Below are positions 1,627 to 61,800 of a DNA stretch of 64,000 nucleotides, one piece after another. The stretch spans positions 23,202,455-23,266,454 of the forward strand of contig CAIIXF020000002.1 of the NCBI GenBank assembly GCA_903813345.2, in the 5' to 3' direction. Every line of letters starts with the position of its first letter. The stretch's first letter is position 1. The stretch is from Owenia fusiformis (Eukaryota; Annelida; Polychaeta; Sabellida; Oweniidae). The notes under the pieces were generated by a model. That model made no database searches. It was not told the origin of the DNA and worked only from the letters and a program-made list of their open reading frames with translations. Both the position numbers and the translations under genes were made by a program.

Positions 1627-4600
1627 ATGGCCACATCTGAATCTAAAACACCATCGCAAAATGAACGACATTGGAAAGTCGGGAAGCGATCTTTAGAAAG
1701 TGCAAAGAAATGTATAGAGGAGAAAAACTTTGGTCGGGCGTTTGCACATTTTCTTCTTGCACAACAACTTTTACCAAAATTGAAAACTGATGCTGAGATA
1801 AAGAATGATTTTGTGTATGTTTTGAGTCAATGGACAGCTGAACTGAAAGAGAAAGGTCGCATTGAGGATGTGCTGCAATGTTACGAGCAGGCATGTGAAA
1901 TCTGCCCTGAGAATGAAGTTGTCCATAACAATATGGGATCACAACTTTTTCAGTAAGTCAAATAAGAAGAAAACATATAGGCACATGATATTGTGTTCTT
2001 TAAAAGATAAATGATTTGAGAATTGAGAATGTATTCTTATTGATAGATTTCAGGTTAGATAAACACAAAGTTGATGTTTTAAAAATGATAATGAATAGTA
2101 TATACAATGTACTGTATGTGTATATTCAATCTATTGCAATATATTCAATATTTTATCCCAACAAATCTTTAATGCACTGCCCACATTTGTTTCAATAGAC
2201 TCGGATACATTGATGAGGCTGCAAGTTGCTTTAGACGTGCTGTTCGTCTTTACCCAGAATACCTCAGTGCACGCACAAACCTTGAAAACCTATGCAGCCA
2301 CTTAGTTGAGAGATGGCACTTTAAAATGCTAAATGATCGAAAAAGGAATGAATATTATCAACGTGCGATAAGTAGAGCAATTCAACAGGGCCATAGTGAT
2401 ATCCTTGATATAGGCTCAGGGACATGTATTTTAAGGTAAGAAAAAATGCAGCATTGGAATTGTCATCCTCCGATCACAGGGCTTCAAAATCCAGAATATA
2501 TTCTTTCTTTTTACCCCCTGCGATAAGCAGTTACCATTTCCCCGATTAAGAACTCACAATCTGATTGGCTGTCGCAACACTGCATCAGAAATCATGTATA
2601 AATCAGAGCGCATAATAACATCACATGATTCAGTTAAATCGGGCGTTTCCAAATTGATTATAGCAGGGGGAAGGAGGTATGGATTCTGGACAACTGCTTA
2701 GGAGGATGTGGAATTGTGTAAATGTGCAATTCATAACTCAACTTGTCATTTGGGTAATGGGCTAAAAAGGGCTAAATTCATTTAAAGAAATACATACATA
2801 ACAAATTATTAATTTAAAATACATGGTTAAGTAAAACTTAATTAAGTGAAAAATAAATATGTACTTAGACACACTGCTGAGTGCAAAACTTTTTTCTGAA
2901 TATCTTTTATTTTATTGTATAATGTATTTATATATTTTTAGCATGATTGCCGCAGAGGAACATGCAGCTTCTGTTACAGCATGTGAGATGTCTAAGCCCA
3001 TATATGAGATGTCATGTGACATTTTGGAAGCCAATCATATGTCTTCTAGGATTAACCTCCTAAATAAGAAGTCTACAGAGTTAGAGATTGGAATTGATAT
3101 TCCGAAAAAGTCAGCTGTTACACATATCATTAAACATACAGAGAGTCATGTAGTTTTATTCTTTTTTTAAATATTAGGAAGATAATACAGAAACTTTAAC
3201 TATATGATACAGGTGGATGATTAGATTGGGCTGGGCTACGACTTAAAGTTTTGGTAGGAATATAATAATGATTTGGGGATCAATTGTCAAAAACACTATA
3301 TATTTTTGAGGCTTGACTGGAGAAAATATTTTAGTCTTTGGTATAATAATATCCGCATAATTCAATGGAATGAGACTACATAACTGACGATGTATTTCAG
3401 TAGCCAGTAATTAATGAGCATTTTGTGTTTATTTCTCCACCTCTCACTTAACTGGCTTGTTGCAATTTTTCAGAGTTTCTTTGGTTGTGACTGAGACATT
3501 CGATGCAGGACTTCTCGGGGAGCATATCTTATCTACACTCCACCATGCTTGGGATAAGCTCCTGCTACCATGGAAACCAGGACAAAATGGTGGCAAAGTG
3601 ATCCCCTCTGGTGCTAAAGTATTTGCCTGTGCCATTGAGTGTAAGGCTATAAGATATCAAAACAGGTTTGTAGAAAAAGATTATTTATAGGTATAGATTA
3701 GAATAGTTTCTTAAGGTAGATTCGCACGATGAGAATTTGAATTTTATTTTCGAAATTATAATAACTAAGATGATTGAAATATAGAATATTGCATCATGAG
3801 TAAATCATTTCTCCTTCTTCCAGATTGCTCTATCCAGTACTCAGGGCCCAACCTGTGTATATTTTTTCCTCCTTATAGATTGCTCTACCCAGTACTTTGG
3901 GCCAACCCTGTATATATTTTCTCGTACTTTCAGATTGCTCTACCCTGTAATCAGGGTCCACCCTGTATATATTTTCTCCTTATAGATTGCTCTATCCTTT
4001 ACTCAGGCCCCACCCTGTATATATTTTCTCCTACTTTCAGATTGCTTTACCCAGTACTCAGGACTCACCCTGTATATATTTTCTCCTCCTTATAGATTGC
4101 TCTATCCTTAACTCAGGCCCCACCCTGTATATATTTTCTCCTACTTTCAGATTGCTTTACCCAGTACTCAGGGCCCACCCTGTATATACTTTCTCCTACT
4201 TTCAGATTGCTCTACCCAGTGCTCAGGGCCCACACTGTATATATTTTCTCCTTATAGATTGCTCTATCCTTTACTCAGGCCCCACCCTGTATATATTTTC
4301 TCCTACTTTCAGATTGCTTTACCCAGTACTCAGGGCCCACCCTGTATATACTTTCTCCTACTTTCAGATTGCTCTACCCAGTGCTCAGGGTCCACCCTGT
4401 ATATATTTTCTCCTTATAGATTGCTCTATCCTTTACTCAGGCCCCACCCTGTATATATTTTCTCCTACTTTCAGATTGCTTTACTCAGTACTCAGGACTC
4501 ACCCTGTATATATTTTCTCATACTTTCAGATTGCTTTACCCAGTGCTCAGGGCCCACCCTGTATATATTTTCTCATACTTCCAGATTGCTTTACCCAGTG

Positions 4601-7600
4601 CTCAGGGCCCACCCTGTATATATTTTCTCATACTTCCAGATTGCTCTACCCAGTACTCAGGGACCTTGACTTAACAGGGGTCCATGTTCTATGCGAGACT
4701 AACAGTCAACAGGCAGATCAGGAGAGTTGTGAACCATACACTACAGAGAATCTTGCGCTGGTCCCTGGTGGATACACGAAACTAACAGATGTCAAAGAGT
4801 TCTGCACATTTGACTTTAATAGCCCTCAGGTAAGCATTACCAAGGAATACATTTAACCAACTAATGAGCCAGCATTGAACCCAAATGGTTATATTATAGA
4901 TAAAAGGTACAGGATTTATCACTCTACTATACCTTGCATTTGGTGTTCATGAGCAACCCATTTGGCTGATTAGTAATGATTATGTTATTTGTTTTTATTT
5001 GTCTGTTCCTTATAAATGGTTTATTGAATGACTGTTAGATGTTAATAAGGTACATGTACTTTCAAAAATATACTTAACAATACAATTGGACAAACAGAGT
5101 ATCTTATGCATTTCTATGGGTTAGGTATAGTGGAGTGTTGTATATATTATCAAATGCAAACATTGCATGTAAAAATCTGGAAAACCCCAGATATTTTCAA
5201 CAAAACCCTTCTAGGTTGAATCACCACATGGACCAACTATCTTCTGCATGCACTCAGTTGAAATTACATTACACTTAGTTGAGATTGCATTGCACTTAAT
5301 TGAGATTACATATTGCTCAGCTGAAATTAGATTACATAGCACTCATTTTAGATTACATTGTACTCAGCCTTGATTATAATTGGACTCAAATGAAATAACA
5401 TTGCACCCAGTTGAAAATCCAGTTGCACCTCGCAATAGATATTTTAACTATTTAGAACATAGCTTTAGTCAAAAATCAAAGTTGAATTTAACATTACAGT
5501 TGAGAAAAAGTTCTAAATACCGTAAAACCTGGGAACCTGAAAATAGTGTTCATTGGTAGGTGTTTGGTAGGTCCACTTACAGAGCTTCAAAGGTACACAG
5601 GCAAATTACATCGGACCCCGTACACGCCCGTACGGAGCTCGTTGTGTCAACGGACCCTGTACAACCTCGTACGGGCCTCGTTACGAGTCTCGTAATTGCT
5701 TGTTATTTTCGAGCCTCGTTAGAGCTTGTGATTACAAGGCCTGTAATAGCTCGTAATTCTCGACCCCCGTACTTTACCGTACGGTGCCCGTAACGAGCAC
5801 CGTAATAAATCGTAATTTTCGATCCCCATACTTGCTGGTACGGTGCCTGTTACAAGGCCCGTAATAGCTCATAATTTTCGAGCCGTGTACTTGCCTGTGC
5901 AATGCCCGTAACAAGACCCGTTATGGCTCGTAATTTTCAAGCACTGTACTTGCCCGTACGGGGCTCGTAACGAGGCTCGTAATTGCTCGTTTATTTTGAT
6001 GAATTCTTTTTGATCAATGAAATAAAATACAGCATATATGAGAAATGCTCGAAATTGCGAGCCTCGTACATGCTTGGATGGGCCTCGGAAACAACAATTA
6101 CGAGCATCGTACGAGCTCGCACGGCCCTCGAAAATGAGCTTCGTACGAGCCCGTACGAGGATGGTGCTCCTTTTTGCCCGTAATGACTAGTAATTCTCGA
6201 GGCTCGTACGAGCTCGTATGGGGCCCGATGTAATTTGCCTGTGTAACAGACCTTTGAATTGTTCCACTTATGAAGGTATTATAACATTATTAATATTATT
6301 TACAGGTTTTATTGTACTTTATATTCCAGGACATATCTAATCACATGATGCAGGGAATGAAGACAATGATCATCCCAGCTACACATGGTGGACGTTTGGA
6401 TGCAATTGCAATGTGGTTTGACCTTGACCTTGGGAATGGAGTCACCTTGACAACTGCTCCTACTGGAGAACAGTGCTGTTGGGAGCAGGCAATTTATCCT
6501 GTACTGCCATGTCACTTTTCTAAGAAAGGTAAGTTATTGTTAAGACTTTCTAAATGTTGATCATTAATGAAGATATGAATAATACTAGTACTAATACTAG
6601 TATTTATTTATTTATTTATTTTTTGCCACCATCTTTCTATTTTCTTTGTTTATTTGCACTAGTTTATTATATCATAAAATTGTACAATCCAAACTTCTCA
6701 AACTTCCATAAAATGTTCATGTATTTCCTTATATTTCAGGCCCAATTGAACATTTCATTTTGAAAGAACACGATTCAATAGCTGTAGAATATGGTTGCCA
6801 TAGTGATTGCCTCCAGTTCCAATGTACAGAGATCATCCGCCCTGCTATGACATCACACAAGACCTCACCAGACGTCACATCATTAAACCTCGGGCCAACT
6901 TCCGAAAACTTCAGAACATTTTACCTCGATAGACCCGAGATTGGACGTTTAAACGATATATCCTTAAACACCGCATACTGCACTGCTGTGCAAAAAATCT
7001 TAAAAACCAATCATTCAAACAATACATATAAACTAATCGATATAAGTCAGGGATTTTCCACTATACCGTTACAAGCATTGAACATGGGGTATCAATCTGT
7101 GTGTGTTCTGAACAGTGAAGCCATGAAGTATGCACCTCTTATAAAGCATCTGACTCAGTTACATGAGATAGGGTATAACAGGGTGAAAATATCAGAGGAA
7201 GATATTGCCCATTGTAAACCAGAGTATGATGTTATCGTCGCAGATGTCATAGAACCATGCGGAACCCTGAGACAGCAGATACTAGAGGATTTAGCATTAG
7301 CAAGGTAATAATGTATTAGATCTGCAAAATACATGTAGATTAGGAAAGACAATGAAATCTGTGTAAGTGGCACCTCATTGGCACCTTAAAACAGTGGAGT
7401 AACTTAACTTTGAAAGGTGTTCCACTTATTAAGATGTTCTACTTCCAATTTTTACCGTAGTGGAATACATGTTCATTGTTCTTGAATAGTTGCTATATAA
7501 ATAATGCCCAATGTTTTCTACTGCAAGACTTTTATATTATTTAAAGCAATTTGTAAAATTATTGAGTATAAGCAATTCAAAATGATGGAGCATTAGCAAT

Positions 7601-14934: not shown

Positions 14935-27668
<12,734 letters not shown>

Positions 27669-28339
27669 GATGACCTTATACCATAAATAGCTGCAGAAAT
27701 ATACTCTAGTACGATATCACGATGCAGTATTCCATTAAACGTGAGAAAATGAACTTTGTTTATTTATTTTTGATTTTTATTTTCATTGACTTCCATCTTG
27801 GGAGCATTTATTTCTTGCTTTTCAAAAATGTTTTTCCCAAATCCGATCTCAGCTGCAGCGTGGTCCGATATGCACATGGAAATATATTTCAAAACATTTT
27901 TCTGGTTAAATTATATGAATAAATAGAAGGTTAAACCTCCTATTAGTCAATTGAAAATACCATTGAAAATCAAATACAAGACTACCTGATGTAATTTTTC
28001 TGCTTCCGGTTATGAATCAAAGTCTCAAGATTTGATAAACTTTCAGGTATTACACTAAAATAGCACAAGATACTGACGTATCATTCGTAAGAACTGATAG
28101 ATGATAGCATTATCTACTACCAGACACTATTATAAGCAGGTGTGAGCACTTAAACCCAGGTAAGGTCAAGAACATAAATAAATATTTTCAGAAATTAGAT
28201 TTCACATGTCTGTCAGATCTTACTAGGGCGAAGGGGTGTAACGTCGACACCATTTTGGGGTAACTTCTACATGTGGGGTAACTTCGACACCTTGTTGTTT
28301 ATTTGCTCTAATTTCCGATCTAGGGGGAAACCATGTTTT

Positions 28340-33684: not shown

Positions 33685-33685
33685 T

Positions 33686-33850
33686 TTATCACACAGATAA
33701 CAGCATCAATATCACACAGATATCAGCGTCAATAATATCACACAGATAACAGCTTCAATATCACACAGATATCAGCGTCAATAATATCACACAGATAACA
33801 GCTTCAATATCACACAGATATCAGCGTCAATAATATCACACAGATATAAT
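33686..33850 (-). repeat. Minisatellite in the 5' leader of the LTR element
   Basis: Alternating words ATCACACAGATAACAGC and ATCACACAGATATCAGCGTC make a roughly 56-bp unit repeated about three times just upstream of the gag start. Confidence 0.8.
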
Positions 33851-35397: not shown

Positions 35398-35898
35398 AAA
35401 AGACTTATAGCAGTGATTAACTATAACTATAACTATGTAATTGAGATGATAATGTAACTCTCAATAATCAAGCAAGCATCAATCACTTTTTACAATATTT
35501 CCTGTTGATGAAGCAATATCACTTATCGATCTGGTCATGCTGCCCATTTACATTTTAAAATTGTTTGTTGCAAAAGTAAGAAAATTTGATTATTTTTTTG
35601 TTGTAAATATAACACGCTTGATAAGAATGAAAAGTTGTAATTATTGTAATGTTTATAAACAGTACACGAAACAAGTTGTTGTAATTATAATATTGTGTCC
35701 CAACCCTTTAAACTAAATGTAGAAGAAAAACTAAACACTATAAAAGATTTGAAAAGATACATTTAAAATATAGTATTCACTTTTGAAACACCTTGTAGGT
35801 ACAGAATTCATCTCAATATAGTTATACAAAGATATATAAAGACCGTTCTTTCATTTTTTCAGGAGTGATGTTGTAAATGTACTTCAATTCGCAATAAG

Positions 35899-38800
35899 AT
35901 GGCTGAAGCGCAACGTTCACGGCCAAGCCGGCCTGCCCAGCCAAGCACACAGCAACATCCTGGCAACACATCAAATGGAGTAACAAGATCTTTAGACTGT
36001 TTACAGCAGATTAAACAATACCACGATGAGGCTTACCTGTATATTGAACAAGGACTCACAATGGATGAGCAAGGAAATAAAGAGCAAACTATTGTTTCAT
36101 ACACAAAGGGTCTTAGCCTTATAAAAAAAGCTCTAGACATTGACGTTAACCATAACACACTAACTGGCGACCAATTAGATAAAGCTAGTAGATTACAAAC
36201 CAAAATGACCAAAACTCGTATTCAGATTCAGTCGAGAGTTGACGATCTTCAGTGTGCTAGTAGAAGTAATGTTGAGACTCCAATGGAAATACAGAGCCCG
36301 GCATATGAATTTCCTCCAAGTTATGAAGACTCTGTTTATGACAGTATCATGAATGATGAGACAAGTAGTAATAGTAGTGTCGACTCATTTGTGGCAGATG
36401 CAGAACAGGTACCTTTAACAGTAATTTGCTTTTGGCTAGTTTCAACAATTTTAGCTCAGATTCTGTACGGCTATGAATAATGTAATATTAAAGTCAGGGT
36501 AATTTTTAGTAAGGTCAAGTTTTGCTGAAGTAACAGAAGCGTTGACTCATCTGTGGCAGGGGTTGATTTTACTGATAGCTAGTAGCAAGTTTGCTACCTT
36601 ATATCAATTTTTGCTACCTGAACATAAGCAATTTTCTTTTCCTACTGATAAAACATTAAGCTCAGGGTCAAAGGTCAGGGTCATTTTAAGTAAGGTCAAG
36701 TTTTGATAAAGTTCATCTGAAGTAAGTTTTAATCGTCATGTATCATTAGAATCTAGAACAAAGATTTAGCTAAAGCACTTGCAAAAGAATAACAGTTCGT
36801 GACTTCTCTGAATATAAGGTGACGGGTTCAGGGTTCTTTGTTCATATCTTTTAGTATACTTCTCCATCCCTTAGATTTATAATTGAATTAAATACAGTTG
36901 TCTCAATTTCTATTTTCAGCTATTTTCAATTGAAAATGAGGTCCAAATCTATTATATATCAGCTGAAGGATATGTTAGTGCACCATCATATCCTTCCTCA
37001 TTGAAAATATGCAAATTCAGAGGTCAAAATGAGGCGTCCAGAGAAGACGGAAGACCCCCGGGATTCCTAAATGTTGGTGAATGGGTGTATCCATTGATTC
37101 CTGGGACATCCCCTGTGTTACAGGCAGAGTATGGAGCTTATATTTTCCCAGATGTGCAGTCGGATCAACCAGGTAAGTAAAGTATAGAGGCATTTATACA
37201 GGCAATTTACAGCCATTCAAATAAATCTTGCAGAAACTTTTCAAGGGGAGTTGAAAGCCCCCAAATTGTTATTTTCAATATTTGAGAATCAGGATCTATC
37301 AGGAGTCTTTTAACTTGTTACAACTTTTTTTGTAGGAAACTTACCAAATTTTATACCTTACAAAAAAGAAGCTCTGTTAGCAATTTATCTTATGTTGATG
37401 AAGGCTTTTATAACTTTTCTTGATAGACCTCGCTATAGTCTTTATTTGTTTGTACAAATAAATATTCATTGTCATGAAAATGTCATGCAAAAATCGAGTA
37501 AAGTCACTGTCAGTCACAATAATGTATATTCCTACTGTATAAATATCAGCTCGATAAAACTAGCCCAAAAAAATAACAGAATCAGTTGAACTTATTTATT
37601 TTTACACATATTTACCAGGAGCTGCTGTTGGTCTTATGCTTCCACCAACCCTCTCACAATCAGAGAGATCAAGGTTTGAACAGATCCTTGGTTCTTTAAC
37701 TGATATGAGAACGACACCATCAGCCCCTGTAGAAGGTGTCGCTCCCTCTGCCCCTGTAGAAGGTGTCACTCCCTCTGCGCCTGCCCAAGAGAGACCAGCG
37801 TCAAGGCAACCAGAGCCCAGATCCCGAGTGGCACCAGAACGACCAGCCAGACCACCAACAATCGCTTCTGCAGATGCTAGTAGATTACCACAGAGAAAAA
37901 CTAGTACCAAGATTGCGCAGGGGATTGTCACAGGTAGGATTTTACCCAAGATGGAACAACAGTGATGTATTACAAAGAATTAAATACTTTATTTTGTACT
38001 AGGAATTACATGTACTAGGAATTACATAATTAGGTTAGTTTTAAGTACAATAGCACTCACATTTCAGATGATTCACATCTCTGCCAATTGATGGAAGCAT
38101 TATTTCATACCAGTGATTTGCCATATCCATTAAAATTTAAGTTGTATATCCTATATGTACTATGTGCTATAAGGAGTAAATTGGGCAAATAAACACAACT
38201 GAAAAGTCCCTCGTTTACATCTTAAAGTAGTTGATACATAGATTCACTATCCAAATCTCATCTTTAATATTTACTTTTAAGCTTCTGAATGGATTTCATG
38301 GGGTGTTGAGAAAACTGCAGAAAAAGGGGGTGAAATCCTAAAGTTTGGCTCAGCTAAATTGAAACAGCATATCAAGCCTGATGAGTTGAAGAAAGATGTT
38401 GACCCTAATGTTATCAAAGGTGTTGAGGTTGCCAGACAGGCCACTGGGGTTGCTGTTAAAGTGAGCGGCTTCCTTGGTTAGTGAGGTTTTATTTCATCGT
38501 ACTAGAGTTGTTCATTTAAAGGGGTATTCCTTGCAAGACCATCTCTCTCCTAATATGGTAGCTATAACCATATACATACTTTGCAAGTTTATCAAAAAAC
38601 AGAAAAATGTTTTGAAATGGTCAATATTGATCACTTAAAAATGTAGTGCTCAATTCCAGTAGGCTGCCATCTTTTAAAATTTCACTCAGGAAGTGATGTC
38701 ATCGACTCTCAACTTTGCATATAACATTAGGTAAGGAGCTATTAGAATTACTAAACCAGCTGAATATTTTTTTCTATTTGGTCTATATTAAAATCCTCTT

Positions 38801-43856: not shown

Positions 43857-46800
43857 TTATGCTAAAGGACTGAAAAAGCTTGATCCACTATTCAAGTTCA
43901 ATAATTTTTTCTTTTTCTTCAATCCGCCATCCAATATTGTGGATTCAAGAGTGTCCGATACATTCTGTGTGTCAGAAGCATCACTAATTTTGTCAGATTT
44001 ACGCTTTCCTGATCTGCGTTTAGATTGTTCCGATCGATTTTCTATGTCCATTAATGGTTGAACGCTTTCACTGCTGGGGATGGTTGATTCCGCAGAATCT
44101 GCAGATGCTGGTCGTCCGATGTCAAAGGTTGTGTTCAATGTGCTGGCACTCTGTAATAATAGAAAAGCAGCAAAATCAATATACTGCATCTTAAGGTGGG
44201 TCAAGTAGAACCTGTTTATGAATGTTACTAGTGAAAGATCCAAGTTAATCAGTCAAATTATTTATCCCACTTATCCTGCCTTAATACAGGGTTACTCAAA
44301 AATGCAACCATCTGACTGGAATAACTTTCAATTATGAAAGAATATTTCTGCTGTCCTCAGCACTTTTTCTATGGTAAAGTTATTAAGACATTAAGGGATT
44401 ACATTTGAATTTGAAAGGTGTTCAAGTGAGAATTCAAGTTTGCAGTGTATGCACGATCATTTGGAAGACGAGAGATAAAGATTTCCATCTTTACATTGAA
44501 TTCAAGAAAATGTATCTAAGAGATCAAAAGCTTATACATTGATGCAAAGAAAAGCTAGGGTGATGATGTAGAAAAATTGATATTTTCTGAAGATGACATT
44601 AGATGTTTAACATGTTTACCTGCTTTAAATGGGCTTATTAACATTCACATGTTAATCTGTTTTAAATGGGCTTTTGCAGATTACTGACAGAGACAACACT
44701 TACATCTGAGCCGGAAGGTGATTGAGTCCTGGAAGATGAATTCTTGCATAGCTCTGAATCGCATTTACATTGGACACCACACTCCAGCCCTTTCCTCACA
44801 CATCCGCAGTGGTTTGTTCCACAAAGATTTTTCCCCTTCTTACAACTACATTTTGTATCACCGCCTGATTTGTTGTGGCCCTAGAAAAGCATGTTAAAGG
44901 TTAAAAAATCAATTCATCGCCTGATTTGTTGTGGCCCTAGAAAAGCGTGTTAAAGGTTAAAAAATCAATTCATTGCCTGATTTGTTGTGGCCCTAGAAAA
45001 GCATGTTAAAGGTTAAAAAATCAATTCATTGCCTGATTTGTTGTGGCCCTAGAAACACGTGTTAAAGGTTAAAAAATCAATTCATTGCCTGATTTGTTGT
45101 GGCCCTAGAAACACATTGTTACATGTTGAAAAATTAATTCATTAATGAGCATATTTCCGTTTGCTATGATCTGTATAACTTAAAAGGTAAATGGCATATC
45201 AAAACTGCACAATATCTGAAAATGCTGACCAAGCTTTAATTCAGAGTTCATCACAAATATCTTAAATTACTAGTACTGTTAAACCTGAGAAGTGGAAAAC
45301 CTCCATTAAATGGAACACATTTCCTACACATTAACTCAATGTAAAATGAACCTCTGTAAGTGCAACATTAATTTGAGGTACCAACGATTTTTCACATGCA
45401 CAGGTTGTTCAAATACTCTTGTGTTTAAAAGAATAGATTTGTTAATTGAGAGATATAAAAACGACTTATGAATTTGCTATTGATCAATTAATTTACTCTG
45501 GAATTTACCTGATCACTTCCGTGACCATCTTCATCATTCCATGTTAAGTTAGAATCCCCTTTCTTCTGGCGCTGAAAACACAAAATATACATTTCAGATT
45601 AAATACATTATATCTAAATCTAAGTATCTCCCCATTATTATACAAATATTTCATTCTATTAATTGGATTTCCACGAAGCTTCTTAGGAGTTGTTAACTAC
45701 ATACATGCACAGCATTGTAAGTGATCTCCCCAGGATTTTTTCTCAGGTGGATGCAAAATTCTCATTTCCACAATTCAGACCAAAATTGATAAGGAGACCA
45801 CTGGTTGTACACTCATGGTTTGATCATAAAATAGTGTCTAAATGGAGACTGAACTGAGTACTCTGTACCTAAACTATTAGTAAATACTGGTACATGTACA
45901 TGACTATTCTCACTAGTATTTTATTTTATGAGGCTGACAGTTAAAATTATGGATTTAGTGCTTTGAATGGTTCGAATCGATATTCAGAAGTGTTTAAAAC
46001 ATATTTGCCAATTTCCACCAAAGCAAAGTTGTCCCTATTCACCATTGAACCATGTCACCATAATAAAGGCTTTTTAACTTTTAATGGAGTGCAGTGTTCA
46101 AAGTAGGCACTTATTAGTACATGTATCTATTTTCTACACAAAAGCAAAAAATACTCCAGATATTCATGAATTACTGAGCTACTACCTTCAAAGTTCAAAT
46201 TCTTCGAAAGTGGAAAATATTGAGTCTTTTTGTGAAAGGATGCAAGAGAGTGGAGAGGTTGAATAGTGACTAAGTGTTGCTAAGGGGGGGGGGGTAATCT
46301 AACCCTACTATCACACCAAAGTAATTCTCACTACGTTCTCAAAAACGGGCTTAAACTGTGCACGAACCGTTTGGGATCTGTTTACAAACTTCATGAAACT
46401 ACTAGAACGAGTAGGTCCTCCAGAACTTAGAGCATGCTCAAAACTTTCTGGTGATCGTCAAAACGTTGCCGAATCGGTTTTAAACTGTGTGCGAACTGAA
46501 TGAACGTAGCTACAACGTTCTACAGTCTGTTTATGAGCTTCATGGACTTTCCCAGACGGGGAATGTGATTTAGAATTTTGAATCGATTCAAAATTTGATG
46601 GCGACCATACCGTTCTGTAATCAGGTCATGATGACCTTCTAGACTAAGGGACGCGTTATACGACGTTGCACACCAACGTGGTGCGACCTGAACGCACTGC
46701 AAATGAGATGGACGTATTGAAGACTGTTTATGAACGAAGTAGCTAATTATTTTAGACATATTTCCCGACCACAGCCAGATTGAGCCCATTTTACGACATT

Positions 46801-49800
46801 TACGTAGGACTGGCAAGAATGGGTAAGAACTAGTTTGGTGTGATAGGGGGTAAGGGTAGATTGGAAAACTGTCATGTAAGTGCTATTTATACATCAGATG
46901 TACCTCTGTAGGTGTATTGCCCTGATTGGCATCTCCCTCAGATTCTGTTGGTCTAGGTCCACTACGCTTCTTTTCCTTAGTCTCCTAAAGAGCAATCAGT
47001 CCAACACACTTAATAGTTAATCAGTGCAACACACTCAACAGTAAGTCAGTGCAACACAACACTCTATCTAGATAGAACCCTATACTAAACAACAGGGGCC
47101 CATTTCTAATAATTATTGCCAATGAATATTCATCAAATTCATTTGTCCTAATATGTAGTTACCAGACAATTGAAGTACATGAATCATGACATGATTTTTA
47201 AAAAACGGGTCCCAGAGGTTTCAACAAATTAAATGTAACACAACACACTACAGTTATATTGTCTAACATGCTTTTTTCAAAATAAACAATTAACAATAAA
47301 GCAATACTAAAATCAGGGATAAGAATAGAGTAAAACAAAGGTGTATGAGGATGATATCCAAATGTCAACAACTGTGAATAAATAAATACTGAAAAAAAAT
47401 TGTGAAAATATGTAAATTTCATAAATATGTAAATTTCATCAGGCTTTAGTCCCTTCCCTGCCCCTATATAACGACACTTAAAAATGTTGAATTTTTCAAA
47501 AAATCAATATTCTTCATCAATGCAATCAGTATTGACCACCATCCCTAAAAGTAATAATCAACTTTGCCATTCAACAACTGGATAACATCCTTAAAACATT
47601 TGATTATACATTTTATGCACAAGTAACCTACTTTGCTATTGATAATTTTTCTCTGTAAGTCCTTATGTCTTTGTTGGAAGCCAGGTGTTAGCCCAGGCTG
47701 CCAATCTGCATCATTATCAGAATCGGAGACATCCTCATCTGAGTTATCCTCAATCTCATCCTCGTCTGACATGTACTCATATTGTTTCTTCTGCGCTTTA
47801 TGTTTCCTCTTCTGTAAAACAATATAATATAAAAACTTCAAATTGCCTATGATACAGGTTTTCAGTGGAGAAATTAACCTAATTTTGTTTTTTTGTGTAT
47901 GTAAATAATACATTGTAGTGATTTAGCAATGATACAACCGAAAACCTTCATGTAATCAATTATGTCATACCCTCCATGTAAGGCAAGACATTGTGAAATA
48001 TTTTTGTTCAGAATGATGTTACAACTGTTAAGCCGATGCAGTGAAACCAGTATGTAATATATCGGAACATATGGCTAACTTGTCAGCTTATAATATCAAA
48101 ATGTTTGGTGCATTTCAAAGAATTTGGTTTGCGAAACTATAAAAGTGCCGAAAACCTAAAAGAATGTCGCTACTTTCTATTAATGTTTTCTTACTTCAGT
48201 CATTCTCTCAAAATGGCAAGACCAAAAGTGATGATCAGGAAAAGTACCTTGAGCAGGGGTTTCATTAGCAGCAGGCAACAGGCGATTTTCTCCAGTTTTA
48301 ACAAAATCGCCTGTTGTTTTTAGGGACTTTTCAACTTTTCCATGTTAAATTTATGATTTCCATTAATTTTGCCTGTTTCTTCATTTATTTAGCCTGTTGT
48401 GAGAAATTCAAGTGAAACCCCTGCTTGAGTGTTAAAGATCACTTACCTTGACTGCCTGTCCGACAGGTGTAAAGAATGATGTCCCTACAGGGGAAGCAGG
48501 TAGGCTGTCTCCAAGGCCTGGCATCAGTTTAGTGGCGTATGTATTCTTTGTAATGTGCTGAAATATACAACCCCAGTACATATATATAATATTATCCTAT
48601 ATGAGGTTCAGGATATTGGGATTATATCCTGAGGCTTGTATAATATACCTGCCCAAGAGCCGTAGAATTGAATATGTATTGTGATGAAATATACAACATT
48701 CTTCTTGGTTTATTATCGTTATGTTAGAACGACTAATTCTCATTTTTCTATCTGCTTATATGATAGGTTGTTACTTAGAGTTGAATATCCTTGTTTAATA
48801 CTTATATGTTTAATTCATTTATCTTTTTAAAACATATAGTACTAGTTCTGGATTTCTTTCACAACATAGTGTTTCTAACCCTGATCTAAAAATAAACATC
48901 GAATTATTATTGTGTCAAAATGTCCAGAAAAAAGAGCCTGTATTTCAGTGGTAGCACACTTACTAAGATAGAAGGGGGGGGGTCATGATCTTTTCAATCT
49001 CAAATAAAGTTGATTGCTTTTTCACAATTAAGCCGTCAATGCAGGATTTCGTCCTGTGATTTTATTGAATCTTCATAATATACAACCTACCATTTTAAGT
49101 GTCTTATTCTCTGCCTGACTGTCTACTAGCTGTTCTTGTAGAGCCTCGACCTTCTCAAGCAACTCTTCCTAAGTAACAGAAATAAAAAAGTTAATCGCAC
49201 CAAACATCTGGGTTTGAAAGAGTTAATGTAAGGAAAATTGCCATAGTTTTGTTATTTCTACTACAGTAAAACCTGTGTAAGTGGAACATCCCTTGAAACA
49301 AAAAATGTTCCACTTGGTAGGTGTTCCACTTACAGAGATTCATTGAACATGAAGTTATTGGGGCATGGAATTAAAAAACTATTGCTCTTGTGATTTGCTC
49401 CATTCAACAGTTCAATTTTCAATTTATTTATTCATTGATTACTACAAAATAATGGTTGTATAAAAGGTTTTTCAGATACATTTACAACCCCTTACCTTGG
49501 CTAGTAAGTCTTGCCTTAGCACCTCATCTTGTGTTGTGTTCGCTTGTTTGGATATAACAGCTTTCCATACACGTGCCATCTTAAATGATCAACCCAATGG
49601 TCAGAAAATGAAATATACCCCAAGGCCAGTAATAATATAATATTGAATATCTCCATGAAATGTAATATTTCAAAGATATTTTATGTTTTGGATATATATT
49701 TCTGTTCAAAATTCTAATAACATTTATTTCAATTATTCTGTAAATGGAAATAAAGTCCCCAGAGCCAATGAGACTTGAAAGAGTTAAAAATGAGGACCTT

Positions 49801-52800
49801 ATTTAACCAAAAATTAATGTATATTTACATCAGCCGAATATTCATTACTCAAACTGTTCTCATCCACTTTAATATACAATTCACACATAGCCAGGCAAGG
49901 TGTGTCTGATTCCAGCCAATCCGAAAACAGTATTTCACATATAGAACAGTGTGTGAAATAATCAATAACATACTCAAGGTCACTAGTTAAACAGTTGTCA
50001 TGGTGATGAATGGACTTTTCACATTGAATTTAATGACTTGCCAAATTGACCCTTGCAAAAAATATCATTGAAAAATGTGTTCTTTTAGTGATTTCGTTCC
50101 TTTAAGATGATTTTGTAAAAAATATTTTGCAATGTGTGAAAAGAATTTAAGCCCAAGACTCAATACATTGTGGCTGGTTCATTCCACTCAGATGTTGTTT
50201 CCTCAACTCTGCATTCCCGCTGCGTGGTCATGCAAAGATTTGGAAACAACATCTTCATGGAATGGTTCAGCACACAATGCACTGAGTCCAAGGCTTAAAT
50301 CCTTAAATATATTTCCGTACAAAATTTTACCTTTTGTTCATGTTCCATCTGAAGTTGAGCCATCTCATTCTCATGTTGCAGTTTCATGTTTTTCACTGTT
50401 TTCTCAGCCTCATCCATCATTGCAGAAGCCTCCTTGTGTACAGCCTTGCTGGATTCACACTCAGCTACAGAGAGAAATAAATAGTATTTAGTTTATCTTG
50501 CATTTGGTGTTCATGAGCAACCCATTTTGCTTATAAGTATTGATTATGTATTTGTTTTTATTTGTCCGTTCCTTATTAATGGTTTACCGGTTGAATGTTA
50601 GATGTTACTAAGGCACTTTCAAAAATGTACTAAACAATACAATTAGACAAATAGAGTATCTTATGCATTTCTAGGTGTTATGTGCAGTAGAGTGTTATAT
50701 TTTCAACAAAAACAAACATGAACTTAAATGTTTGTGTTGTGTGAATGATAAACTCTTCTTGAAAGATTTTGAAAATGAGGACAAGACACACAGTGATAAA
50801 TATATAAATATCAGACTTTTTATCAAACAATTCACCCAGCATTCCCTAAACCTAACCAGATCTATACAGAAAGACAATATTACTCGAATTTGTCTGCTGA
50901 AACTTAGCAAGAAAAACTGGAAAAAGAAACATGTCAATAACAAACAAAATGTCACTCCCTGCCATTTGTTACAGATGCCCACTGCCCAACTCTGACCACT
51001 GAACACAAAAATCCACAAAAGTGTTGTTGACCTTGAAGACAATACCTTTGAATTTCTCTGCATAATTTGTATTTTGCAATTGCTTTATCATGTTTTTTTC
51101 TTCTCTGAAATATAAAATTAAAAAAAAAATGTTGGAGATCAAAACAAAAAATGACATTGAGGACAATACCTTTGAATTTCTCTGCATGTACTTTGGCTGT
51201 TACCATGCCATTGTGGAGGTACTTAAGAGCTACCTTGGCTTCAACTATAGTGTGGATACGTTCCCATTTGTTATTAGTAGCTTTGGGGTCATTCTGGTCG
51301 GCTAATCTACCCTGGATCTCTTCAATCTGAATATTCCTGAATAAAAAACATTACAACTTTTTAATTTGGTGATAATAAACAGGGGTAATAACATACATGA
51401 ACAAAAATAATTTTTCTGAGAATATTGTTCAAGGCAATCCTTTCTCGTAAATACTAAGTATTGTCGTAAATGTCTTAAAATACCTGAGTTCTAGATCCTG
51501 ATCTAAGGCAACTAGTTCTTTACTCAATACAGCTTTGCGATCATCCTACAAAACACAAACATAATTTAGTTTTTGATAAGTTTAAATAACTCGAAGGAGC
51601 AGATTATGTCCATTCCTATTTTTTTCTAATATATAAATGTAACATATTATATTAATAGGTTATAGTGGCTATTTGAAGCAGAAAATCAATGGAATATGTA
51701 TTTTAAAGGTTTCTAGTGTTCAAGATTTTCATCAAAGTTTGAATCATGATTTATTGGAAATGAAAGTAACCTAATTAGCACCCAATTGTTTTTTTCATTT
51801 AATTTTGAATCATTCTTGGCTCAACAGTGAGCCACAAAAAAGTACTGGCAGTAAAACCTCTCGATTCATTAAAAAAATTGAAAAAATCAAACCTCAGGCG
51901 GTAACTTGTTCAGTTTTTGCTTTAAGTTAGTCCTGTGAGCTGTCAGTTCCTTCCTGTCTTTTATAAGTTCATCCAGCGTACTTTGAGCTCTTTTTACAGC
52001 TACTTCCATGTTTAAGTCTTGCTGAAGCCATGACTGAAATACATACATCATTAGCAATTAATCGATCACCACACAAGATTTACCATTGAAATTAAATCAT
52101 CATGGTAAAATGGCCTTTAAACTCTCAGTAGCAAGAAATAAAACACAAAAGCAAGTAGTCAACATTCTTAATTGTACAGAAATGGAATAAAATGAGTTAC
52201 GTTATTCAAATTTTAAAGAGATATATTGTGAAATGCTCGAATTGAGCAGATGTTTAACCACATAATGTCTCACCCTGATTCTATTGCCCACACCAGACAT
52301 CTCTTGCTTCTCTTCCTTGGCAGCTCTCTGGTTTACAGCCAGTCTGTGCTTCTCTGTAGCCTCCTGTTAATAAAATAAATAGGATATGACATAAAATATT
52401 CCATTTTTTATTTATTTGCAGTGTTTTTTCCAAGGTTTATTTTCTCAAGTGAGAGGAAAATTATTGACAAATCAATGTTAACTAAAACATTTTTTGCTGA
52501 TTTTTCGTAACAAAATTATTTCATACATCTACTCTTTACATTGACATGTATTTTTACAATGTAGGATACTTGAAATTATTTGTAAAGCTAGGAAATAGGT
52601 CAAAAGTGAATTTCGCGAGACAAAAATGGTGGCCATTTTGAGAATAGGCGAGCTTTTGAACCAGGAGTCATAGGGGAGTTTTCTGTATTGATGTTGAACA
52701 GAAATAACTTAAAACAGGAATCCTCTCGACAGAGGTTTTAAAACGTGCCACTGTTGTTGACGGAAAAGTGGATTTCGCGAGTCAGATGGACAAATCAATG

Positions 52801-55800
52801 TTAACTAAAATGGCTGAAAATAAAAAATGGATATAATTTTTCGCTGATTTTTTGTAACAAAATTATTTCATATATCTTCTCTTTACATTGAAATGGATTT
52901 TTACAATGTAGGACACCTGAAACTATTTGTAAAGCTAGAAAATGGGTCAAAAGTGAATTTTGAGAGACAAAAATGGCGGCCATTTTGAAAATAGGCGAGC
53001 TTTTGAACCAGGAGTCATAGGGGAGTTTTCTGTATTGATGTTGAACAGAAATAACTTAAAACAGGAATCCTATCGACAGAGGTTTTAAAACGTGCCACTA
53101 TTGTTGACGGACAGACAGACAGACAGACACGGACAAGTCTAAAGTCAGAATTGAATTTCTCAGATCTTGTAGATGATTTTGAAAAAAATTTGGCAATTTG
53201 AAGCAATTTGAAAAAAAATTGTTGAACTTTTTTGACCTTGAGAAGGTCATTGAAGGTCAAATCTCAAATCTATTTTGACATTTTATTTTTCTTGATAAAC
53301 CTAATTATCCATTTTTAGGAATCCATATAATATCAAGAGACTAGCCTTCCCTTAAAGGTTTAAAGGTTTACATTTGTTCAACATATGATTCTAGTAAACA
53401 AACAGTTAAAAAAATCCAACCAAGGAAATAATTTATTATATTTTGTGTAGTATAAAACAAGTAAACTGTTACAAGTGCTCATACTTCACATGATATGAGT
53501 TTATTCCGGTATTTTAAAATGTCTTCAATAAAAAGATGTCACTGCTTTTAACAACATCAATTGAAACCTCATTCACATAGTAACTGCTGAAGTACAAGAA
53601 AATCAATATTAACTAGAAATACAAAAAACACATAAAAATCAATATTAAACCAAATAAAAGGGGCACATTAATTCAAAACAACTTTTTTTGAGTTTTAAGT
53701 GTGAATGTTAACATGAAAATCCTATTGAGATTAGGAGGTCATTCTAACCTATTGGTATGACTCGTCGATACTGAACTACTTCTGAGAACTGCTTAACATA
53801 AAAATCAACTGAGAAAGTAGCATTTCTTTTCAACTGACTCGAATCACTTGTTTATTCAAAGTGAGAAATGGCTTCAAATGTAGACGATCATTGTAAGGCT
53901 GCTTTAAAGTGTGCACTATGTCAGGACATTCTATCTGACCCAAGGACATTGCCGTGTTTACATTCTTATTGTCTAAAGTGTCTACACAGCCTCATTGAGA
54001 AAAGTGACCTACAAGGAGGAAGCTTCAACTGCCCTGAATGCCGACATGAATGTATTGTTCCACAGCAGGGTGTGGCAGAATTCAAGGTGAGCCCTACAAT
54101 CGCCTTCTTAATAGATGTCTATAAGGACAGTAATGACCAGACACAAGACCCAGAATGCTCAATATGTTTCGACACCTACGAGAAGCACACCCCGGCTAAT
54201 ATCCGCTGCCTGGAATGTAATAAGAGCTTCTGTACTACATGCCAGAAAACTCACGACTCGCTCTTAAAAGGACATAAAATACTTGACCTCACAGGGGATC
54301 GTGCAAATGATTTGGAAACAGCCTTTCAGATGGTGAAAGAACGCACTGTGTACTGCAAGATACACCCCAATAAGCCTATAGAATATTTCTGTAAAGCTGA
54401 TAAGACTGTTCTCTGCCAGTCTTGCTTTACCATCAACCACTCGGGTCACCCTTGTGAAGACATCAATGAGACTGCTGCTAAGAACACAAAACAAATCGGT
54501 GCACTAATATCAAAGGGAAATCAACTTGTGGACTTGTATGAGAAGGCAATCGATAACACCCAGGTCTGTAAATCTGAACTTGAACAAAATACAGAAAATG
54601 TGATTGCTGAAATAATCAACGATATGAACACATTATTAGAAACAGTCCGGTCAACGTACGAATCCTTCATAGAGCAGGTGACACGTGAGAAGCAAACAAA
54701 CGTAAAGCAAGTCGTGTCCCACATTGGCCACCTTGAACTTGATAAATCCATAATTAAGAGTCAAGTCAACAAGTACTGCGCTATGGTAGAGCATGGCCAT
54801 CCGGTGGAAATAGCAGGCCTTGCTGAGCAGGTCAACCAAAAGTCTGAAGAGTGGAATGAGCAGCCCAAGATGGAATTTGATGCAAAAATTAATGTTCAAT
54901 TTAAAGTTGGCACATGCTATGATGATAAGGTAGAATATGGACAAGTTACTACTATACAGAAAGTAAAACTCCATGAGAACATTATATCTGGTCTCCTTGG
55001 CACACCAGAGGGTCAATATGTAGTTACAGGAGCTACAACTTCTAGAGCAGCTATATATGATAAGAGCCACAACTTAGTAAAGGATTTAGGAAGGAACTTT
55101 TATGACATTACATACACAAATGAAGGGAACCTAGCAGCTACTTCAAGTGACACAGACACAATAAGCATCCTACAGCCAGATGGTACCCATCAACATGATC
55201 TTGAATGTAAAGGGTTAAAGAACCTTGAGGGCATAACTTTGAACTCAGCAGGGGAGTTTATAGTCTGTGATTGGGAATTAGAAGCAGTATACAAAGTGGA
55301 TACCTCAACAGGTGAAACTAAACAGCAATTCAAGCCAGGCATGTTTGAGAGCCCAAGATATGTGGCATGCAACAGCAAAGATGTGGCTATAATCAGTAAC
55401 TGGGACGGGCACATTGTGAAAGGAATCAACAGAGATGGTACTGAGGTATTCTCATATGGAGAACATGGTGATGGAGAAGGACAGTTGAGCTGCCCATGTG
55501 GAGTATGTACTGATGCTGGAGACTACATCTTTGTAGCAGACCAGGAAAACCATCGAGTACACATGCTGGACCCAAACGGAAGATTTGTAAGATATATGTT
55601 GACAGAGAAGGATGGATTGGAGGAGCCAACTGCAGTCACAATCGATCATGATGGCAATCTTCTTGTGGGAGATGATGATGGCAATCTTTACATAGTGAAA
55701 TACATGTACAGAGAATAAGGTACAAACTGTAACTACATACATACATTTGAAACTGTACACCGAATCTATTAGCAATGGTGTCAAGTTACCAACAGTTGTG

Positions 55801-58800
55801 TACAGATAATTATGGGTTTTATAAGCCATTTACATTCACAATTGATCATGATGGCAATCTTATTGTTGGCCTGTGGGGGATCTCAATGGCAACCTTTTTG
55901 CTGTGAAATACAGAGAATAAGATGCAGTTCAAATGAAACAGATAGATTTGTAAACCTAAAACCAGAAGTGTGGTTTTGACTCAAATGGTGAACCTGAAAT
56001 CACTATTTTGTCACATACTGATCCTACTCTGTTAAGAATGGCGAATAATTGCCGACAGTTATGGAAAAAGTTAATTTCATGAAGGCAGAGGGATAAATGA
56101 AAATGTTTATGATAAAAAATGGGGTACCAAAAATGGTCAACATACTGATTCTATTCTATTAGGAATGGCTGTGGAAGAACAAAGTTGATTTCAATATCAT
56201 GGAGAGGGGTATAATGAAGATTTTGGCAAATTTAAATGAATGAAAATCTGGCATTATCAAACTTAATATGGCGGATGACATGTTAAATCATAATGAAACA
56301 AACTTTATTTTTCCACAATTGTCAACATTCGGACATGCAAATTCATTACACTTACCTTAAGTCTTTTGTTAATGGCAGCAGATTCCTCCAGTTTACGCTT
56401 ATACACAGCAGCTTGTTTACTGTGTTGCTTTTCCATACGGACAATCTCAATTTGACGTTTACGATCCTGAAATGAAAATAGCGTTCAAGATGTTTATTTA
56501 GTAGATGTTACAAAAAACAAGTCAAAGATGCATTCATCCAGTATCATCTTAAAAATGTTATGGAAAATACCAATGTTATGGAAAATACCAATATGACTGA
56601 AATAAGAATGAAGTTTTTTTTGTAACAACAATTTGAAAATATATCTTACTCATTACAAAATAATATTGTTTCACATACACTAACATCATTTATAAATTAA
56701 AAGATTGATTTTTTCTTAACATCAAGATCATACAACATTTCAGTGTAAGGGGTATCATTAATAGACAAATACACTATAACTAGAACACTGCATCACATTG
56801 TAATTATTTGTATATGTGAAACTATTGAATAGAACAATAAACTAAATTAGAACACAAGAAATCTTGTCCTATATAAAACTATGGTACTCTACATGGCCCT
56901 TTTAATTTAAACAAGGCATTAACCTCTTCAATGTCAAAACCTGGCAATAATTCTCTAGTTTCAAACCGATTTTAGAGCCTGGGATTCGAGCAAATGTGAC
57001 CACCTGCCATTTGATACAGACGCTGAATGCCCAACCATCAAACACCAAATGCCAAACCCCAAGACTGTCCACTAAAAAGACTATAATTACATGTCACCAC
57101 TTCTTGTGGTGACAAAATAAAAGAATACATGTCTCAATGGCCATTATATTTACCTGGGCCTTTAATTGAGTGAGTTCTTTCTCTTTGTCTTTCTTCCACT
57201 GTGTGTAGTCCTTGTTCTCTTGCTTAATCTGGTTTATTAGCTTCACTCTATGTTGTTTCATCATCTGAAAGTTCATTGAAAAAAAAACTGCTAAGACAAG
57301 GGTCATGGTACTGTAATACTATCCCAAGGTAGCAGCAGCATTTTCTCTGATTCTCTGATTTTCTCTCATTCAAGTATGAAATCTTTGTGTCAGTACTAAT
57401 ATTTATTCTGATGTCACTGTTCAAATCTTACCTTGATGTCAGTGTTTAGTTTGGAGATTTGTATATCTGATCTTTCTTTATCCTTCAATAGTTTGGATTG
57501 TTCATTTAACTTCTTACGGAAACCTGCAATCTTCATCTCCAGTTCTTTTACTTTTTGTCGCCTCTGTTCACTTAATCTAAACACAGCATGAATTAAACAG
57601 AATTAAGTAATAGTTAAAGCGTAGCTCTGTTAAATCGGAATGTGCATTTAACAAGACAGTTTTCTTTTGTTCTTTGTTATAAGGTGTAAAAGAACATAAA
57701 ATGTATTGTTAGTACCTCAGTTGAAATACTCGATTTTGATTGGTCAACGAGCGGTGAATAATTTTAACTGTACACCGCGCAATGCATTGCCGGTGAATAA
57801 TATTCCCAGCATTCCACTAAAATGACGTCATTATCAGACGATAAAATGGCCGCCGCTAGCACTAGCCGTTTCAAAAATATTGAAGATGAGGATATTATTA
57901 GTCTCTTAGAGAGTAAAGACAGTCAAAATACGAAGAAAAATCTAAAACTTTGTACAAAGCTTTTAGTGGACTTCGCCCAGGAGAGTAATTTGACTCCATT
58001 GAGTGAACTTACTGCCGTGGCAGATGTAGATCTCGAGGGTCTGGATTCAACTTCAAGTCAACTTCAAGGGTCAGAAAAATCTAAGATATTCTTCGGACTA
58101 ACAAAACAATTATAGACCTCTCCATTCGGTTTACTGTCAAAATTATATCCCTCGACTGTAAACCTCGACCTACGGTCTCAGTTTACAGTCTCGGGATATA
58201 ATTTTGACAGTAAACCTCTGGAGAGGTCAATAATTGTATATTGTAAAAATTCTGGCACATTAGCTCTAGCTAGTGAGTGAGTCGATATATTACAAGGCAA
58301 ATTACTTCAACAATTTACATAAATAGTAATAATTTGCATTGTACTGAGAATGAACCCAGTTTATATCCATACTCACTTATTGGATGGGATGTGCATGATG
58401 GTCTTTTCCAATTTGTTTTCCATTTCATCCTTCTCTTTTGTGAGTTTGTCTATTTCTTCCTGGTAGTTCTTTACTGCAGTCTGCATGAAATACAAGTATT
58501 TCCAGATATTTTTTGTGTGGATCATGTTATGAATGCACATATGTACATGCAGTTTGCAGTATTACATGTTCTTAAAAGTCAATAACTGTTTACATGTTTC
58601 CAGAAAGTTTATTCAATTTGCTGAAAATAAAATACAGTGATCTCTCCAGCATTAAAGCAAGTGGGTGCAGCATCTACCTGAGATTTTGAAAATAGGCTTG
58701 CAGCACCCACCTGAAAATCCATTTGCACCCACTTGAAAATGAGGTAAATCATGAAAATAGGCATATGATGGTTGATCAATAAGTAATGGACGCTTTTTTA

Positions 58801-61800
58801 CACAGATGCTTTTTATAGACCAATCCCTTCGATTTTCTTACCAGTGATACATCATTCAATTATCTATCAACTCTGAAGATTTGAAAACAAAACATGTAAT
58901 ATATTTTGATATATCTTTATTTCCGTGAAGGATGTGTAGGTACCCCGGGACCGACATGACGTCAAACATTCTGAAGCTATTTTAGCTTGTTTAACATGCA
59001 ATGCAGTTGAATGCAGGCTGAACAAAACAAACCATTATGGTCATGAATTACCCCATTTTGTTGCCATAGTTGATTTTGAATATTTTATCATCACTATGTG
59101 GTATTCATGCCACATTCATTCCACAGGGTCCTCTACATAGGTTTTCCATCAAGTGCTACGTGTACACAATTCCTCATCCTCTTAACTGACAAGATTGTGA
59201 GACAAGGCTGAATTGATTCTCTGACATGGTAGCAAGATGCAGTTGCACGACGGGTTGTTTTATTTCATCAATGGCAATAAACCTGCATCCTTTCTCTATA
59301 GAAATAAGTAGTATAGGAATAAATAAGTCACATGTGAGCAGATCTGGACAATATGGTGCATTATTGGCCATGGGCTCAATTTTGAGGTCCAGGGATATTG
59401 TTTTCTGAACATTTTGAGATCTGTGGGCAGGTGCATTGTCCATATGGAGTAGGGTGTTCCCTTCTCTCACCACCCCTTTCTTCCACTGAATGCTTTCTCA
59501 AATTGACCTGCAAACCCCTTCCATACAACACTCTGACATCACAATACTTTCTGTTTATGTGTTACCAGTCAGCAAGAAATTTCAAACAACACAACACTTG
59601 TTGCATATAAAAAGTTCAAATCTAACTGAAATTTGCCAAACTGGCTAAAAACTGAATATGTGATGTAAATGTTGGTCCCAGGTACCTGTACCTCCTTCAC
59701 GGAAATAAGGATATACCAACATGTATTTGTCTTCAAATCTTCAGAATTGATAGATTATAGAATGACATATCACTGGTATGAAAATCAAAGGGATTGGTCT
59801 ATAAAAAGTATCTGCGTAAAAAAGCGTCCATTACTTATTGATCACCCCTCGTATTTTGACCAATTTTGGTCTGATTTGTGAAAATGAGAATTTTGCACCC
59901 ACTTGAGAGAAAATCCCCTGGAGTTCACTGAAATATGTGCTTCATTTAAACAAACAGACTAGAAAGACTGATGAAGCAAAATTGTTAATGTTAGGATATT
60001 CAAAGATAAAACATCTCCCCTCATAGTCTACTCTAATTTGTTCAAAGGTAAAGCAATTAAAAACATCTCACCTCATAGTCCACTCTAATTTGATTAATGT
60101 TCAAAGGTAAAACATCTCACCTCATAGTCTACTCTTATCTGGTCAATGTTCAAAGGTAAAACATCTCACCTCATAGTCTACTCTAATCTGATCAATGTTC
60201 AAAGGTAAAACATCTCCCCTCATAGTCCACTCTAATTTGATTAATGTTCAAAGGTAAAACATCTCACCTCATAGTCTACTCTAATTTGATCAATGTTCAA
60301 AGGTAAAACAATTAAAAACATCTCACCTCATAGTCTACTCTAATTTGATTAATGTTTATAGGTAAAACAATTAAAAACACCCCTCATAGTCTATTCTAAT
60401 TTGATTAAGTTTAAATGTAAAACATCTCCCCTCATAGTCTACTCTAATTTGATTAAGTTCAAAGGTAAAACATCTCACCTCATAGTCTACTCTAATTTGA
60501 TCAATGTTCAAAGGTAAAACAATTAAAAACATCTCACCTCATAGTCTACTCTAATTTGATTAATGTTTAAAGGCAAAACAATTAAAAACACCCCTCATAG
60601 TCTATTCTAATTTGATTAAGTTTAAACGTAAAACATCTCACCTCATAGTCTACTCTAATTTGATTAAGTTCAAAGGTAAAACATCTCACCTCATAGTCTA
60701 CTCTAATCTGATCAATGTTCTCCTCATTGTCTTGTTTGTTTTTTAGTAGCTGTTCCTTGTCTGCAAGCTGTTTGGATAACACCTATAAGACACAAAAAAG
60801 AACATAAGAAAAGGATTAGAGATGAAAACACACAAATTATGTAAATAGTACTAATGCGGTAATCTTAGTTGATCAATGTAGGAGCTTGATTCTAAATAAT
60901 TGTGATTGGATCATATGAATTTATTGACCAAACATTCTATCATAATCTCATAAAAGCACTAGATTTTTTTTATCGTAAAACAGGCTTTTTATTTAAGAAG
61001 CCTTAAGGTGGGACCTGGTCGACTTAAAGGTCACTGAATAAGATTCCACCTTAAGGTAGGATCATGCCCATGTTTACCTGTAGTTCATTGAAGGCCAATT
61101 TCTTCCTCTGTGCAAAGTTGTCACTGATCTCTTTGTCCTCCTCCGACATTGACATCTGTGTTGGGGTATCAACCATCTCTCTGTTACACTACAACACACA
61201 ATGTAATATACTTCAACACACATCTGCACAAGGATCAGTCCATCTCTCACTTACACAACAAAACAATATTATGAGAAACAAGCTATTAATAAAAGAGCTC
61301 TATGGTTTATAACTGGATGTGAGCCACTTTTCAAAAGGTTCTGAGCGCTTTTGTTAAATGTAGGGAGACAATGCCTGATGTTACACTAGAATGGATTATT
61401 CTGAATCATTGTATAACTGTATTCTAACTAACCTTGGGAGAACAATGTTTGATGTAACACTAGAATGGATTATTCTGAATCATTTTATAACTGTATTCTT
61501 ACTAACCTCTTGTGCTTCAGTATCAACTAACGCAATTGATTTATTAAATGTTTTATGGAGCTCTTCACAATGTTCTGTCACTCCTTTGAGCTGTTCTTTG
61601 AGGTTGGCCAGCATGGAATTCTGGGTAGCAGCATCCCCTGTATCAGTCTGGGTTAGAGCATCTATTGAGCTGTGGAAAAGGACGAAGGATGTGTTTTATT
61701 TATTTTTTCATTCATTAAACAGTAATTTATTCATTTGTTAACATATTTACAAAATAAATAAGGCTCGACACCCAAGTGGGCCAATATAGCCATTTTTAGA

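Follow-up and report, generated by a model that had tools for sequence, protein, structure and literature searches.

Tandem arrays across splice junctions of genes in the annelid Owenia fusiformis are probably of the amphioxus "mirage" type

Why should tandem repeats in unrelated genes come to lie across the edges of exons, and which of the repeated edges do the genes use? The question is raised by a 64,000-nucleotide stretch of DNA (the window) from the annelid Owenia fusiformis, C2:23202455-23266454 of a 498,259,871-bp assembly, in which the original prediction had placed tandem repeats at six splice junctions of PRMT9, TMEM184C and KIF4. Arrays were detected with Tandem Repeats Finder (TRF), and overlapping rows were merged manually into 13 clusters, of which three were dropped (two in a retroelement region, one within an exon of SPART). 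The gene models of the window comprise 48 exons, 44 introns and 88 junctions; every intron is GT-AG and the frames are open. Judged by TRF and these models, the original observation is confirmed: arrays A-E each hold a splice junction inside the array or at its edge. The sixth case, F, is a non-tandem block present in two copies. The arrays and their exons are, in window positions:

3808-4662, plus strand: array A, TRF unit 55 bp x 15.7; 16 copies (52-55 bp), each comprising the intron end, AG and the first ~23 nt of PRMT9 exon 5.
4640-4829, plus strand: PRMT9 exon 5, beginning at the last copy of A, the functional acceptor.
17077-17756, minus strand: array B, TRF unit 97 bp x 7.0; 7 copies of 59 intron and 38 exon bases at the TMEM184C exon 8 acceptor.
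16939-17113, minus strand: TMEM184C exon 8; the B copy at the exon start is taken as functional.
44863-45143, minus strand: array C, TRF unit 56 bp x 5.0; 5 copies of 38 intron and 18 exon bases at a KIF4 acceptor.
44704-44880, minus strand: exon of the KIF4 cysteine-rich tail, starting with the functional C copy, in agreement with database protein P0122.
51031-51184, minus strand: F, the exon end and donor block (28/30 match) of the KIF4 exon at 51170-51336 (donor 51169/51170), with its second copy 124 bp downstream.
59999-60720, minus strand: array D, TRF unit 49 bp x 14.1; 14 copies (48-59 bp) of ~28 exon-end and ~21 intron-start bases at a KIF4 donor.
60690-60782, minus strand: KIF4 exon whose donor is the functional D copy; P0122 reads RVDYE/TAVKN here.
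61363-61508, minus strand: array E, TRF unit 74 bp x 2.0; 2 copies running from the KIF4 donor GTTAGT onward, with nearly no exon bases.
61507-61669, minus strand: KIF4 exon whose donor is the functional E copy, on the basis of P0122.

The array units differ from one another by inspection, as had been predicted. A 161-base piece of array A gave seven matches in the 498-Mb assembly, all within array A itself, so this test of one unit did not find the same sequence at many loci, as a single transposon family would have it. The gene models agree with database proteins: the nine-exon, 797-aa PRMT9 model is 100% identical to P0002 of O. fusiformis, and the alignment to the PRMT9 structure 8rbk in the PDB spans the exon 5 junction with no insert of the size of the array.

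Junction arrays recur in the adjoining DNA. Four more were found in the 60 kb downstream of the window, in KIF4 and in ARMC3, whose junctions are predictions of a gene finder trained on the window; the predicted ARMC3 has 20 exons, 19 GT-AG introns, an open frame and PF14381 in its last part. The four are:

From window position 63891 to 2.7 kb beyond the window end, minus strand: array G, 18 copies (159 bp) of the intron end and ~126 nt of a KIF4 motor-domain exon, reading AG/ATTC in 18/18 copies.
In ARMC3: array H, 108 bp x 7, at an acceptor.
In ARMC3: array I, 99 bp x 2, at an acceptor.
In ARMC3: array K, 33 bp x 2.4, at an acceptor, with about six exon bases in the unit.

The nine junction arrays in 124 kb thus lie at seven acceptors (A, B, C, G, H, I, K) and two donors (D, E), with units of 33-159 bp. 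The unit straddles the exon-intron boundary in A, B, C, D, G, H and I and only barely does so in E and K. That the arrays are an artefact of assembly is very improbable. Tandem arrays are difficult to assemble, and one globin mirage of the lancelet was aberrantly assembled in a genome draft (PMC3087553), but copies within each of A-E and G-I have diverged (81-97% matches by TRF) and the gene models are intact; the published Owenia assembly, if it is the same as the one used here, was built from PacBio long reads (PMC9977687).

Variation among the copies is codon-structured, and this structure is confined to their exonic parts. When A, B, C, D, G, H and I were pooled, synonymous changes made up 26 of the 38 exonic variants against 10.9 expected when the same base changes were placed randomly (P <5e-5), and when variants private to the functional copy were removed the count was 19 of 31 against 8.8 (P 5e-5). 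The wrong reading frames gave 5/36 and 2/36. Variable exonic columns fell at codon positions 1, 2 and 3 in numbers of 9, 2 and 26, versus 6, 9 and 3 for the intronic parts of A, B, C, D, G and H (Fisher P 0.0004). Taken singly, the synonymous excess was clear in G (P 0.0002), H (0.03) and I (0.01). One of the seven H copies was excluded from the codon test for a 1-bp deletion, C had no variable site, and the two I copies give no direction of change. The intron control covered 12-57 columns per array and excluded from B, C, G and H the copy at the distal edge, together with another H copy and 2/14 D copies, so that its copy sets are unlike those of the exon test.

Divergence from the functional copy neither rose nor fell steadily away from the exon. 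Strict outward growth from the exon was rejected on this ground, and exchange across the array fits better; the most diverged copy is the distal edge copy in C, G and H, but not in A, B and D. From the codon pattern, the exonic parts of the unused copies (decoys) are read as having passed through a coding-constrained state. Because most decoys are not usefully translatable, they likely once were working exon edges, or exchange with them.

Which copy is spliced was approached through proteins, site strength and exon length. In the database proteins for PRMT9 and KIF4 a single copy is present at each of A, C, D, E and G, the exon-proximal one. This agreement is support rather than proof, since the published Owenia gene set was built from RNA sequencing (RNA-seq) junctions combined with Augustus (PMC9977687). 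Splice-site strength was scored with a weight matrix trained on the window's own 44 introns. Acceptor scores ranged over 2.4-3.9 in A (3.0 for the functional site), 2.5-4.7 in B (4.7) and 1.2-3.0 in C (3.0, with three of four decoys lower), and the donor score was 3.6 in every GT copy of D. With decoys scoring close to the functional site, under a matrix trained on the same sites, strength barely chooses among copies and was rejected as the chooser. Use of the exon-proximal copy yields exons of 93-190 nt, and 38 of the 40 internal exons in the window are at most 300 nt long; the most distal copy would make exons of 401-2879 nt in A, B, C, D, G and H. We infer that exon definition, with a preference for the nearest site, is the simplest reason for use of the proximal copy.

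The decoys could instead serve as alternative exons or acceptors, with a peptide of consequence and a frame kept by selection, and it is here that the synonymous excess among them could be given another cause. AG is retained in 16/16 copies of A, 7/7 of B, 5/5 of C, 18/18 of G and all copies of H, and 4 of the 15 A decoys are open, adding 55-218 aa, as is one GT decoy of D. Retention in 16/16 A copies is no strong sign, because many other A columns are also invariant (roughly half of those in the exon part and 39% of those in the intron part; outside A most columns are invariant). Against such a role, a premature stop would follow from 11/15 decoys of A, 6/6 of B, 4/4 of C, 7/8 GT decoys of D and the single decoys of E and F (1/1 each). 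In-frame stops are also seen by eye in the intron parts of G, H and I, and the database proteins hold a single copy. At the donor position the D copies read GT in 9/14 and GG in 5/14. Coding function of the decoys is accordingly improbable, and selection maintaining decoy splice sites, which the original prediction had offered as a cause, is not supported, given the premature stops and the loss of GT from 5/14 D copies. The arrays may nonetheless serve as a source of alternative splice sites.

On balance the arrays are more probably than otherwise of the type described as mirages in amphioxus, derived from tandem duplication over a splice junction and subject to a turnover from which the functional copy is not exempt. 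Each would have begun as a local tandem duplication, between a few dozen and ~160 bp in length, that straddled an existing splice junction and later expanded. Such duplications may be tolerated as those within introns are, the remaining exon being spliced with the nearest copy through exon definition and all other copies staying within the intron. Turnover of the array would proceed by unequal exchange or gene conversion with the functional copy included, so that working exon edges may turn into decoys and decoys may become the working edge. More tentatively, and with somewhat less than an even chance, the functional junction could be a turning-over member of its array, unequal exchange or conversion swapping the exon edge with decoys so that introns grow at their edges, the array supplies exon edges anew and decoys archive past working alleles. 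If true, turnover of junction arrays may be a general way in which invertebrate introns grow, far outside the lancelets.

Several points weigh against this mirage-type origin. The synonymous excess is unclear per array in A (P 0.23), B (0.06) and D (0.07), and without changes private to the functional copy G falls to P 0.007 and I contributes none. Divergence of the exon parts exceeds that of the intron parts in A and H and is below it in B, C and G, and E and K are nearly without exon bases. The choice of the exon-proximal copy is drawn from gene models. The nearest decoy would make exons of ~141-272 nt (A-E, H, I), within the usual range, so that exon length fails to eliminate the nearest decoys and the cell is supposed, in addition, to prefer the nearest site. 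Exon definition as the cause of tolerance and exchange as the route of turnover are both inferred. An Owenia TMEM184C protein was not found among the best 120 of 831 matches to the 595-aa model, in a search restricted to lengths of 0.55-1.75 times the query.

The database gene set may have TMEM184C missing or truncated. PMC9977687 counts 5,779 models overlapping repeats among the spurious predictions for Owenia.

Do the arrays prefer junctions? Founder units were placed randomly within genes, and this null was used in place of a footprint test because an array has one functional junction regardless of its length. The founder-unit null favours the finding, for which reason the footprint test is reported alongside. 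In the window, 5 of 10 arrays with units of at least 20 bp lie at junctions against 1.2 expected (P 0.003; 0.021 without E), and 5 of 7 with units of at least 40 bp against 1.0 (P 0.0009; 0.010 without E); the claim that most of the clear minisatellites sit at junctions therefore holds at the longer threshold and fails at the shorter. These enrichments are post hoc, since the window was chosen for looking striking. The neighbouring 60 kb alone gave 4/19 against 1.8 (P 0.087). Its list of 19 arrays was merged manually, excluded an array at the ARMC3 stop codon and entered two arrays, at 55806 and at 48869-49348, with their shortest units (33 and 59, respectively); the test set the KIF4 exon start at array G to 3984, the correct value being 4017.

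A further 200 kb on C1, picked by coordinate and unseen at the time of choice, brought the DNA surveyed to 324 kb of one assembly. Among its 34 array clusters no convincing junction array was found, against a crude expectation of 1.1; gene finding there was ab initio with no homology check, by the same finder trained on the window. Three clusters touched predicted junctions when only scored exons were considered, and all were judged false: the one at 25967-27680 resembles a mobile repeat in sequence, and, from the TRF units alone, that at 53795 is a glycine-rich coding repeat and that at 177196 is of low complexity.

These results suit a background in which duplications are uniform along genes, exon edges are not special and the junction excess reflects chance together with the choice of a striking window. 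The neighbour and C1 counts taken alone speak for it, and the footprint test showed no excess, a near-copy (at least 24/30) within 450 bp being present at 5/88 junctions versus 8.7% of noncoding positions. It is less comfortable with the window and neighbour together (124 kb), where 9/29 arrays lie at junctions against 3.0 expected (P 0.0012, ~3-fold) and 8/14 of those with units of at least 40 bp against 2.35 (P 0.0006), the window part being post hoc in both. Without E and K the figure is 7/27 against 2.8 (P 0.013), and with C1 included it is 9/63 against about 4.1 (P 0.024, ~2-fold). We put uniform duplication at slightly under an even chance. A mutational process aimed at exon edges, by transcription- or splicing-linked breaks or by slippage at pyrimidine-rich acceptors, would account for the modest excess and for the predominance of acceptors (seven of the nine). 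No common motif was seen, however, the genes and units are unrelated, and the excess outside the window is not significant alone; such a process is doubtful. The original suggestion of a process favouring exon edges is weak if a strong preference is meant, the excess being about two- to three-fold. The phenomenon is real, and the preference for junctions is modest and unproven.

Other features of the window are as follows; the names TMEM184C, SPART and TRIM are putative and follow domain matches.

Plus strand: PRMT9.
14935-27668, minus strand: TMEM184C, PF03619.
29422-33705, minus strand: long retroelement open reading frame (ORF) between TMEM184C and SPART, with a zinc-knuckle motif by eye.
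Plus strand: SPART, with a Senescence domain (PF06911).
Minus strand: KIF4, whose window exons are the last 968 aa of P0122 (1,273 aa), every residue matching.
53868-55718, plus strand: intronless TRIM-like gene (RING, B-box, NHL) inside a KIF4 intron, in the opposite orientation to KIF4.

SPART, which had gone unnamed in the original prediction, is without a junction array. Several repeats lie elsewhere. A 49-bp tandem array at 33687-33846 lies at the 5' end of the retroelement ORF. Intron 5 of PRMT9 contains, at 5570-6240 and away from junctions, degenerate 59-bp and related repeats with abundant CGTAC/GTACG palindromes. A TMEM184C intron holds a cysteine-rich ORF repeat in both orientations (18342-19074 and 20831-21173), possibly a mobile element. 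In the downstream neighbour, a 22/44-bp array at 58584-58970 runs from the last ARMC3 codons and stop codon into the 3' flank, a border of coding and untranslated sequence. The C1 block has dispersed repeats with internal tandem structure of 135 to 340 bp at 26082-27680, 35566-36268, 54726-55051 and 135291-135656, the last three of which resemble one family.

Arrays of this kind may mislead gene predictors and repeat filters at the affected exons. They also amount to a natural experiment on how the spliceosome chooses among near-identical sites, and the codon signature of the decoys offers a route to asking how arrays evolve and whether new introns come from them. In the literature found, mirages are reported only from lancelets, and no annelid report of arrays across splice junctions was found in the literature searched, the coverage of which is incomplete. 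The presence of nine junction arrays within 124 kb of annelid DNA suggests that duplication of exon boundaries is not peculiar to lancelets.

For an earthworm metallothionein, tandem exon duplications that are missing from the transcript are described (PMC12783039). Three other systems invite comparison.

Introners are one element copied into many genes; they have in common with the Owenia arrays a repeated sequence at introns, whereas array A is confined to one locus. Zhuo and colleagues (2007) reportedly described human introns derived from tandem arrays. The Rogers model of intron gain by tandem duplication likewise has tandem copies carrying splice signals within a gene. It differs in that the Owenia unit already includes part of an existing intron and its boundary, and a new intron is not demonstrated.

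The closest likeness is to amphioxus, where mirages are known at Adh3 and at the globins BflGb6 and BflGb9 (PMC3087553), and to which PMC3902484 adds TnC and similar repeats in PGBD5. In both animals the unit spans the junction, 5' and 3' boundaries are affected, each gene has a different unit, and AG or GT signals stand in the decoys while the gene product is normal (in Owenia apparently so, from gene models and database proteins). Amphioxus mirages leave regular mRNA splicing undisturbed, with which the Owenia database proteins are consistent. They are homogenised within clusters with edge copies left out, and their copy number is unstable between haplotypes or somatic cells. The basic phenomenon is thus already known from amphioxus. 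Owenia differs in being an annelid and not a cephalochordate and in carrying several arrays in one gene (C, D, E and G in KIF4); new in Owenia is the codon-structured variation among the decoys.

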